This document shows positions 22,577-25,687 of a stretch of DNA of 64,000 nt, piece after piece. Each line of letters opens with the position of its first letter. Positions within the stretch are counted from its first letter, which is position 1. Below the pieces are notes generated by a model, which was not told the origin of the DNA, did not search any database, and saw only the letters and a program-made list of their open reading frames with translations. The stretch is from Plantibacter flavus. Lineage in GTDB: Bacteria; Actinomycetota; Actinomycetes; Actinomycetales; Microbacteriaceae. Made by a program: the position numbers and the translations under genes. The stretch covers positions 1,240,001 to 1,304,000 of the forward strand of contig NZ_CP019402.1 of assembly GCF_002024505.1 (NCBI RefSeq), in the 5' to 3' direction.

Positions 22577-23449
22577 ATGACCGCACAGATCCTCGACGGC
22601 AAGGCCACCGCAGCCGCCATCAAGTCCGAGCTCGCGATCGAGGTGGCCGCACTCAAGGAGCGCGGCATCTCGGTCGGGCTGGGCACCGTCCTCGTCGGAT
22701 CCGACCCGGGTTCGCAGTGGTACGTCGCCGGCAAGCACCGCGACTGCGCCGAGGTCGGCATGGAGTCGATCCGACGCGACCTCCCCGAGACGGTGTCACA
22801 GGAGGAGCTCGAGGCCGTCCTCGACGAGCTCAACGCCGACGAGAGCTGCACCGGCTACATCGTGCAGCTGCCGTTGCCGAAGCACATCGACACCGACGCG
22901 ATCCTCGAGCGCATCGATCCCGAGAAGGACGCCGACGGGCTCCACCCGACCAACCTCGGTCGTCTCGTGCTCAACGTGAACCGCCCGATCCACACACCGT
23001 TGCCGTGCACGCCGAAGGGCGTCATCGAGCTGGTGGAACGTCATGGGATCAGCTGGGCGGGCAAGCACGTCGTCGTCGTGGGCCGCGGGGTCACCGTCGG
23101 TCGCGCGATCGGCCCGCTGCTCACCCGTCGCGAATACAACGCGACGGTCACGCTGACGCACACCGGAACGGTCGGACTCGACGACATCCTCCGCACCGCC
23201 GACGTGATCGTCGCCGCGGCGGGCGTCCCCGGGATCGTCACGCGCGACGCCGTGAAGCCCGGCGTCATCGTCCTCGACGTCGGGGTGAGCCGCGAGACCG
23301 ACCCCGAGACCGGCAAGTCCCGGGTCGTCGGCGACGTCGCCCCTGACGTGGCCGAGGTCGCCTCGTGGATCAGCCCGAACCCCGGTGGTGTCGGTCCCAT
23401 GACGAGAGTCGGACTCCTCGCCAACGTCGTCCGCATGGCCACCCCCTAA
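22577..23449 (+). CDS. folD: Bifunctional methylenetetrahydrofolate dehydrogenase / methenyltetrahydrofolate cyclohydrolase
   Basis: A 290-residue FolD, which oxidises 5,10-methylene-THF and hydrolyses the methenyl form to 10-formyl-THF. Visible family blocks are [24 protein letters not shown] substrate residues (Tyr and Lys of the YxxxK site), [13 protein letters not shown], and [13 protein letters not shown]. The NADP loop region reads [17 protein letters not shown]. It lies 11 bases after glyA and so is likely under the same riboswitch. The 3' end abuts the first palindromic element beside the DUF559 gene. Confidence 0.95.
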
Positions 23450-23453
23450 CTCA

Positions 23454-23518
23454 GCCCGCGAACTGTCACTCGACGCTAGTCCGGCGCCCCGCGATTAGCC
23501 GGAAGTGACAGTTCGCGA
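23454..23518. repeat. Palindromic element 1 (folD / DUF559 junction)
   Basis: Outer arms CGCGAACTGTCACT (23457-23470) and AGTGACAGTTCGCG (23504-23517) are a perfect 14-bp inverted repeat. An inner arm pair GCTAGTC / GATTAGC has one mismatch. The first 32 bases are identical to element 2 at 24443. The last codons and TAG stop of the minus-strand DUF559 gene (stop at 23476) lie inside the element, so the repeat encodes its C-terminus. Confidence 0.85.
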
Positions 23519-24393
23519 GCCAGGGCGGTGAGGATGGGCGACGGGTCCGTCAGGTGCGAGCGATTCACCCGAATGACCCGCCAGCCCGCTGCCATGACTC
23601 GGTCGAGGCGATCGATGTCGTGGAAGATCTGCCGTTCATCCGAGAAGTGGGTGCCGCCGTCGTATTCGACGAGGACCCGCTGTTCGGGATACACCAGGTC
23701 GCCCAAGGCCAGGAACCGTCCGAGGGCGTCTGAGATGACCTCGTTGACGAGTGGTTCCGGAAGGCCCGCGCGGACGATCAGCAGGCGCAATGCGGTCTCC
23801 ATCGGCGAATCCGTCCGAGGCCGCATCATCGAGAACGCGAGCCGCAGCCGCTTCGCGCCGCGACGGCCGTTCATCCGTGCCAGCCCGCGGACGATCTGCT
23901 GCTCCGATGCCAGTGGTCGCCTGCGGCGAAGCAACACGTCGCCGGCGATCACCAGGTCGTCCAAGGGGAGTCGGGTTCCGAGCTGACACCAGGCATCGAC
24001 GGCGGTCAGTACCGGCAGCCCTTCGACGGCGACGACCTCCCAGTGGTCCCCGTCGAGTTGATGCCCACGCACGCCCGATCCTCGAGGCGCGCGTGCCGGC
24101 GCGATGGACGCGACGTCGAGTGGTGCCTCGTGTTCCCAGGTGGGCACGGGGAGGCCGTGCAAGGCCGCCGCGCTCACGTGGCTGAAGAACTGCCCATCGT
24201 GGAGGAGTGGGGCATAGGCGTGACAGCGTCCGGGGATGTCCGTGGGCTGGTCGAGCGGTGCCCGGACGCCTCGGTGCGGCGTGGCGAGGTCGCGCGCTCG
24301 TAGCCGCGATCGAGGCACGCCGAGTTCGTCGGCTTCGGCCATGGAGAACGGCTGCTTGCTGAGTTCGAGGGGGAGGGGACGTCGGCGGACCAT
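23476..24393 (-). CDS. DUF559-domain (Vsr-like nuclease fold) protein with AbiEi-like N-terminus
   Basis: A 305-residue protein. The N-terminal part (residues about 10-60, FSMAEADELGVPRSRLRARD, then HRGVRAP) resembles the AbiEi-type winged-helix domain common in actinobacterial proteins. The C-terminal 110 residues match DUF559, a restriction-endonuclease-like fold related to Vsr, with GDLVYPEQRVLVEYDGG (Asp, then Glu-x-Asp) and GWRVIRVNRSHL. This class is widespread but without proven function; a nuclease or toxin-antitoxin link is only suggested. The gene is flanked by two palindromic repeats, the 3' one containing its stop codon. It sits between folD and galK on the opposite strand to folD and looks like an inserted cassette. 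Confidence 0.8.
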   Translation of the reverse strand: MVRRRPLPLELSKQPFSMAEADELGVPRSRLRARDLATPHRGVRAPLDQPTDIPGRCHAYAPLLHDGQFFSHVSAAALHGLPVPTWEHEAPLDVASIAPARAPRGSGVRGHQLDGDHWEVVAVEGLPVLTAVDAWCQLGTRLPLDDLVIAGDVLLRRRRPLASEQQIVRGLARMNGRRGAKRLRLAFSMMRPRTDSPMETALRLLIVRAGLPEPLVNEVISDALGRFLALGDLVYPEQRVLVEYDGGTHFSDERQIFHDIDRLDRVMAAGWRVIRVNRSHLTDPSPILTALARELSLPANRGAPD

Positions 24394-24442
24394 CCCACCA
24401 CGGTGCCGACTGCGGCGTCTCAGCGTCCGAAGTTCTCCACAC

Positions 24443-24515
24443 CCAGCCCGCGAACTGTCACTCGACGCTAGTCCGAGCGGCCGGGACTAGCCGGAATTGA
24501 CAGTTCGCGGGCAGG
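24443..24515. repeat. Palindromic element 2 (DUF559 / galK junction)
   Basis: Outer arms GCCCGCGAACTGTCA (24446-24460) and its complement (24498-24512) are a perfect 15-bp inverted repeat. Inside is a second perfect 8-bp pair GCTAGTCC (24467-24474) / GGACTAGC (24484-24491). Read on the minus strand it would encode ARELSIPASPGRSD plus a TAG stop, matching 9 of 14 residues of the real DUF559 C-terminus, ARELSLPANRGAPD. The element therefore looks like a left-over gene 3' end. It lies 53 bases upstream of the DUF559 start and 14 bases after the galK stop. Confidence 0.85.
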
Positions 24516-24526
24516 GGTGGGGAAGG

Positions 24527-25683
<1,157 letters not shown>

Positions 25684-25687
<4 letters not shown>

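Follow-up and report, generated by a model that had tools for sequence, protein, structure and literature searches.

In REPtrons, the units of the REP/RAYT system, a gene is flanked by its own palindromes, and the same palindromes are dispersed outside genes (PMC3733652, PMC6006769). As far as the text of these two papers describes, most convergent REPs in two species are found no more than 20 bp from a gene 3' end, and species with several GTAG families carry repeat-specific REPtrons (PMC3733652, PMC6006769). The word stem "actinobacter" is absent from the main text of the first paper (PMC3733652). The DUF559 cassette of Plantibacter flavus resembles this arrangement in that its gene is flanked by a dispersed palindrome which, in the host type, is extragenic and sits near gene 3' ends. 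It differs in its enzyme, which is DUF559/PD-(D/E)XK-like and has no HUH plus Tyr core (Y1 transposase domain), in the size of its palindrome (67 bp in the host, 20-40 bp in REPs), and in having neither a GTAG nor a CGTC end tag. Since architecture and placement are shared but these three features differ, the DUF559 system is to be set beside REP/RAYT as one that works like it, and not among its members.

Four other described systems share single traits with the cassette. TIRtrons (with their TIRYTs) have a RAYT-like gene flanked by longer repeats, and in some species these repeats also make up moderate genome families, but their enzyme is a tyrosine transposase, according to the text of PMC3733652. 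The Caulobacter protein VsrA, a Vsr-like DUF559 protein, has a domain of the same nuclease superfamily, yet the text on it contains neither the string "palindrom" nor "inverted repeat" (PMC12907096). The inverted-repeat-replacing transposition of IS1272 targets inverted repeats and leaves no target duplication, as its description has it, but IS1272 is an insertion sequence with its own transposase (PMC5678879). Moreover, of the 15 outgroup sites compared here, only a few agree with an older hairpin having been replaced. MITEs are short copies of a coding element's ends that themselves code for nothing. The DUF559 system has short copies of this kind too; however, each end is a complete standalone palindrome and not one of two TIRs around filler. 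In the literature searched, judged mostly by title and abstract, no link between DUF559 and such palindromes was found.

The window is the whole stretch of DNA analysed here, 64,000 nucleotides of the P. flavus chromosome. A sequence-only reading had described a DUF559 gene bracketed by two nested palindromes, and this description is confirmed, with end points 2-3 bases from those first given (Table 1). Element 2 lies about 50 nt from the start of the gene, on its upstream side. The identical 32-base left part ascribed to both elements is present (CA plus 30 bases, from 23452 and 24444), and over 83 nt the elements are 83% identical. The arm lengths of 14-15 bp (outer) and 7-8 bp (inner) also hold: the outer arms are 15 bp long, paired at 14/15 positions in element 1 and 15/15 in element 2, and the inner arm is about 8 bp. 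At up to two mismatches the arm motif occurs four times in the window against 0.38 expected, a count reached by 0 of 100 shuffles. Folded alone, as had been proposed, the elements give -40.5 to -45.1 kcal/mol with z of -6.5 to -7.6 (element 1 on the plus strand, element 2 on both strands), and no dinucleotide shuffle matched these energies. A search of Rfam over 4 kb around the cassette returned nothing at gathering score, only two chance hits.

Table 1. Features of the DUF559 cassette and its neighbours (positions counted from the first letter of the window)
Feature	Position	Strand	Remark
folD, left neighbour, converges on the cassette	22577..23449	+	gene name from the sequence-only reading
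Element 1, 67-bp nested palindrome	23454..23520	.	4 nt past the folD stop
Portion of element 1 coding the C-terminal end of the DUF559 protein, stop codon included	23476..23520	-	
305-aa DUF559 / MTES_1575-type nuclease-like protein with AbiEi-like N-terminal part	23476..24393	-	profile matches weak
Element 2, 67-bp nested palindrome	24446..24512	.	14 nt past the galK stop
galK, right neighbour, converges on the cassette	24527..25687	-	gene name from the sequence-only reading

The stop codon of the minus-strand DUF559 gene lies inside element 1, as had been claimed, and element 2 read in the same sense would encode ARELSIPASPGRSD, in which 9 of 14 residues agree with the true gene end ARELSLPANRGAPD, again as claimed. 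The interpretation built on this agreement is partly supported. Support exists for a cassette, two outgroup species having neither gene nor elements between folD and galK; there is none for a unit boundary at the 3' tail of the gene, because most copies of the element are unrelated to a DUF559 gene and the ARELS C-terminus arises where the reading frame runs on into the palindrome. Among the 120 relatives listed, only P0001 (97% identical) shares ARELS, hence the assignment to read-through.

The host protein is a predicted member of the DUF559 / MTES_1575 nuclease family. This assignment draws on Pfam-type matches that are weak for the host protein, which scores 19.2 bits against Pfam DUF559, just below the cut-off of 20.6, and better for its relatives, all 27 of which fall within an E of 0.1 (best 5.2e-7). 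Among 85 proteins, E199, D232 and G246 are kept in all 85, H249 in 84 and E243 in 81; E199, D232, E243 and H249 are the likely active-site positions. Pfam AbiEi_4 matches 2/27 relatives (best E 0.02). No Y1 transposase domain was found with Pfam at E up to 0.1 in 27 proteins, and the motif H-hydrophobic-H is not conserved, because only 6/85 proteins have it.

Copies of the window's kind of palindrome, here called type A, are scattered over the host chromosome. A covariance model built from 25 type-A copies and run on the 4.21-Mb chromosome gave 36 strand hits at 18 places, of which 17 are good (at least 49 bits, on either strand) and one, at 3928222, is weak (29 bits) and has no neighbouring gene end; since 150 of 5098 first-look candidates were scored, strongly degenerate copies may have escaped this search. 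Type-A elements are 67 or 68 bp long and, in 25 element sequences, begin and end GCCCGCG...CGCGGGC with few changes. The arms GCCCGCGAACTGTCA / TGACAGTTCGCGGGC are almost invariant, a symmetric AGT/ACT pair inside is largely kept, and the remainder is variable. Covariation in the inner helix of the 25 copies was no better than in shuffles (132/500 shuffles reached the double-change count), so no conserved RNA is claimed beyond the outer arms. The check on whether copies always end DUF559 genes gave the outcome named beforehand as refuting: 16/18, among them 15/17 good copies, are unrelated to a DUF559 gene and follow other genes or, in the case of the weak copy, adjoin none. Each of the 17 good copies has a frame of coding-type composition that ends within 20 nt or inside the element, at 6/17 convergent neighbours lie on both sides, and a stop codon falls inside the element at copy L114 as well as at the DUF559 gene itself. 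All 18 copies lie within -0.83 Mb to +1.26 Mb of dnaA (contig position 391), and the roughly 2.1 Mb opposite dnaA, about half of the chromosome, carry no type-A copy; the palindrome type of another genome (G285) is more evenly spread, among the matches listed.

Type A is confined to one genus among the genomes searched. The exact-arm pattern occurs in 5/299 genomes of the family, every one Plantibacter, and in 0/293 genomes of other genera. Run on seven Plantibacter genomes, the covariance model gave 34-36 two-strand hits in each of five and none in the other two (G120 and G299). The DUF559 gene is found in the same five species, the copies of the four sisters being 96-98% identical to that of the host; G120 and G299 have only distant DUF559 relatives at 42-43% identity. 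Orthologues of folD are 96-100% identical across the seven genomes. Absence of the cassette from the folD-galK junction in relatives, which had been raised as a check, is seen in both outgroups, where 77 nt including an unrelated hairpin separate the aligned flanks, with no gene and no elements. Among the carriers the cassette does not vary in size, the spacing being 992 bp from start to start of the elements in 5/5 species.

The copies fetched from the five species (80) fall into 16 groups: 11 contain all five species, one merges several sites, and four hold one to four copies. Two of the four small groups proved to be present in all five species once the missing sites were read, one is a site absent from the host, and the fourth is the host's weak copy. 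No element was caught moving; almost every type-A site is common to the five species, so the elements are mostly inherited and are not hopping now. The type-A copies L122, L127 and L128 include two that are 384 bp apart in the host, while their apparent counterparts in G266 are separated by 16.8 kb, which may reflect an intervening rearrangement or insertion.

Both the palindrome arms and the DUF559 protein are being kept by selection. In 12 groups of equal length with at least four species (one group was dropped for unequal length and three others were unused), variable columns number 10/360 in the arms, 43/216 in the adjoining bases, 7/72 in the AGT/ACT pair, 48/158 in the centre and 140/705 in the flanks; the rate of variation is thus sevenfold lower in arm than in flank columns. 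Among the five species dN/dS of the DUF559 gene is 0.09-0.18, above that of folD and galK, and its dS of 0.07-0.13 is similar to theirs. At copies L118:3057 and L120:3095, arm position 11 is G/C on both arms in the host and T/A or mixed in the sisters, as if one arm had templated the other.

The outgroup sites corresponding to type-A elements were compared for traces of insertion. At empty sites, diverged by roughly 8-19%, no clear target-site duplication was seen by eye. An arm-like motif (up to 2/12 mismatches) is present at 4/16 outgroup sites, or in 7/32 windows against 5% of random windows; it could be a target or a remnant, and because of this ambiguity it is not used as evidence. Both outgroups have long hairpins at the folD-galK and L113 sites, and single outgroups have one at L118/11465 (G120) and at L116/3086 (G299); at sites L250 (G120) and L255 (G299), another hairpin, of type CCCTGAGCTTGTCGAAGGG, stands where the element would be. 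A general replacement of older terminators was rejected, with hairpins in 10/30 outgroup windows against 90/513 random ones.

A second cassette gives the solo and occupied states of one site. The paralogue at host position 2,592,763 has the order palindrome-gene-palindrome in G000 (the host) and G050, and the same site in G266 holds a single palindrome between two converging genes, with flanks 96-97% identical. The unit gained or lost at this site is therefore the gene plus one palindrome. Tandem loss between units, which had been suggested for the folD-galK cassette, is plausible for this other one, solo in one species and occupied in two. The empty folD-galK site of the outgroups belongs to a different palindrome type; across both types, all three states (empty, solo and occupied) are represented. 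Solo or empty sites were also sought for three further cassettes, whose flanks were not found in the stretches where they were guessed to lie.

In Cryobacterium the two palindromes beside a gene tend to change together. At one syntenic site with 18 loci, the proteins are 46-97% identical, and the palindromes differ between species and resemble each other across the two sides. In the 12 two-sided loci, upstream and downstream copies have a mean identity of 0.72 within a species, compared with 0.52 between species (56 pairs with protein identity below 75%); the downstream palindromes of L172 and L176, probably mispicked by the finder, were kept in the mean. At 8/12 loci the upstream copy is nearer to its own downstream copy than to the upstream copy of any such species. 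No concerted change was seen in four less diverged sets, where copies at the same position resemble each other at least as much.

Bracketing by matching palindromes extends well beyond the host. A palindrome was scored when its arms were at least 12 long with at most one mismatch, its span was 34-80, and it lay within 200 nt of the gene or in its last 60 nt. Of 57 loci (38 DUF559 loci and 19 Plantibacter paralogue loci, leaving out the partial paralogue matches L034, with no palindrome, and L055, one-sided), 36 are two-sided, 19 one-sided and 2 without, so that 55/57 have a palindrome on at least one side. Control genes and mock edges were drawn only from 35 loci of other genera (L172-L206); there, 21/35 DUF559 genes have palindromes on both sides and 12/35 on one, as against 3/142 and 32/142 control genes. 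The two sides share an outer 7-mer in 36/36 two-sided genes and in 240/1260 mismatched pairs. In relatives, palindromes are mostly 45-75 bp long, with 56-67 bp the commonest lengths. Six other types of Plantibacter paralogue each have their own palindrome. In the host, a palindrome at about 690,713 is like that of the L066-type gene, a gene type that is not among the protein matches listed.

Across the class, a profile search found DUF559 relatives in 216/345 genomes. Forty hits from 19 other families, picked for spread among the best-scoring ones, include 24 two-sided genes (in 11 families), 12 one-sided and 4 without palindromes; a palindrome is upstream in 35 and downstream in 25. The sides match in 21/24 two-sided genes, the other 3/24 not matching, and in 73/552 mismatched pairs.

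The likeness of the arms follows the overall likeness of the proteins. Arms are shared (10/12 bases) in 89/3304 pairs of proteins less than 50% identical versus 43/49 pairs more than 80% identical; the palindromes of distant relatives are thus mostly unrelated. Partial rank correlations with the arms are 0.17 for the middle of the protein and 0.09 for the nuclease part. The N-terminal domain, considered as the sole determinant of specificity, gave no signal (0.02).

Palindromes of other types also stand behind genes. The type CGAGAGYGC...GCRCTCTCG, searched in 298 family genomes, occurs in at least 55 of them; among the matches listed, several genomes carry 4-8 copies, in many cases 56-58 bp long. 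Other hits of this pattern are shorter hairpins or chance. It had been predicted beforehand that pairs of copies 1.05-1.09 kb apart would hold a DUF559 gene, and this was true in 3/3 cases in three other genomes. In 20 stretches chosen from six of the genomes, 17 solo copies were read; the stop of a neighbour lies within 25 nt or inside at 14/17 and is lacking at 3/17. Another 30 loci from this search, ordinary hairpins and coding matches among them, often lack such a stop, and no DUF559 gene lies within 1.5 kb of any. The outer edges of cassettes behave similarly: in the 35 loci of other genera a neighbouring stop lies within 25 nt or inside at 29/54 edges compared with 42/247 mock edges, and within 150 nt at 49/54 compared with 70/247. 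For all 57 loci the counts are 59 and 82 of 91 edges. As the gene finder is crude, these counts are to be taken as comparisons and not as annotations.

These observations point, with a probability we put at roughly two in three (about 0.68), to a nuclease and cognate-palindrome system found across the Actinomycetes and working like REP/RAYT with a DUF559 nuclease in place of the transposase. DUF559 genes are bracketed, their sides match, the palindromes are dispersed and placed at 3' ends, sites are solo, occupied or empty, and arms and protein are conserved; binding, cleavage and mobilisation or spread of the palindromes by the DUF559 protein would complete the system. In the mechanism proposed, the DUF559 protein (PD-(D/E)XK, Vsr-like), perhaps as a dimer, would recognise the palindrome arms and cut or nick the palindrome or its single-stranded hairpin. 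Once cut, the site could be repaired or replicated in a way that copies palindromes into gene 3' ends, where an inserted hairpin would do least harm or might even be useful as a terminator. The same process would homogenise the copies, and cutting at a palindrome could lead to gain or loss of the gene. Through such nuclease-driven copying, the palindromes would thus work like REP sequences with RAYT transposases. A bolder version is tentative and falls somewhat short of even odds: these would be an undescribed class in which DUF559 nucleases copy their own palindromes by double-strand-break or hairpin chemistry with no transposase, together forming an actinobacterial counterpart of REP/RAYT with several independent pairs per genome whose specificity changes in concert.

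Several other explanations cover part of these data. An ordinary transposase elsewhere in the genome may lie behind the spread of the palindromes. The palindromes might instead be only transcription terminators or 3' mRNA hairpins, with an ordinary DUF559 gene insulated by two of them. Copies do stand directly behind stop codons, those in the window fold strongly, and both outgroups have another long hairpin at the folD-galK and L113 sites. But a terminator needs no fixed 15-bp sequence, and the arm columns are conserved to the degree given above; nor does it account for the shared sequence of the two sides of a DUF559 gene, for the rarity of two-sided palindromes at other genes, or for the absence of the palindromes from Plantibacter species without the gene. 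No clear excess of hairpins is seen at the outgroup sites, and a run of four T, as expected of an intrinsic terminator, lies within 15 nt past 1/13 type-A copies (e658k) and is absent past the other 12. We consider this explanation improbable, while terminator action may be a side effect of the palindromes. A homing-type selfish gene, whose nuclease would cut empty palindromes elsewhere so that its own gene is copied in, is a shade less probable again. The single palindrome of G266 facing palindrome-gene-palindrome in G000 and G050 at one site would suit it, as would the rarity of relatives of the host protein on plasmids (6/72,556 records) and phages (1/50,697). Against this, with both palindromes beside the gene still intact, a homing enzyme would presumably cut its own locus; 15 or more solo copies per genome go unexplained; and the one observed solo/occupied site gives no direction, gain or loss.

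A role in defence or self-recognition, with the nuclease destroying foreign DNA and the palindromes serving as marks or for titration, is very unlikely. PADLOC models of AbiEi and of methyl-directed restriction match up to 12/27 relatives each (best E 8.9e-8), and there is a weak similarity to PvuRts1I (E 0.21), which speak for it; but the PADLOC matches are weak for the host protein itself (E 0.003-0.006), no modification enzyme lies between the two palindromes, and the palindromes are few, with about half of the chromosome free of any. Least likely of all are integron-like cassettes with the palindromes as attC-type sites. Nested palindromes behind stop codons and a single gene between two sites are what such cassettes would give, yet the loci examined showed no arrays, and where two sites lie about 1 kb apart, the gene they enclose was DUF559 in all three pairs checked.

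If the DUF559 nuclease and its palindromes do form such a system, a large Pfam nuclease family listed as "protein of unknown function" would gain a function and an easily testable substrate, and REP-like palindrome populations would have arisen at least twice with unrelated enzymes. The system could also explain many of the dispersed hairpins behind actinobacterial genes, and it could supply dozens of nuclease-site pairs for studying the evolution of DNA specificity. In Microbacterium (L191-L206), one syntenic site carries DUF559 genes about 54-95% identical with at least two quite different palindrome types.
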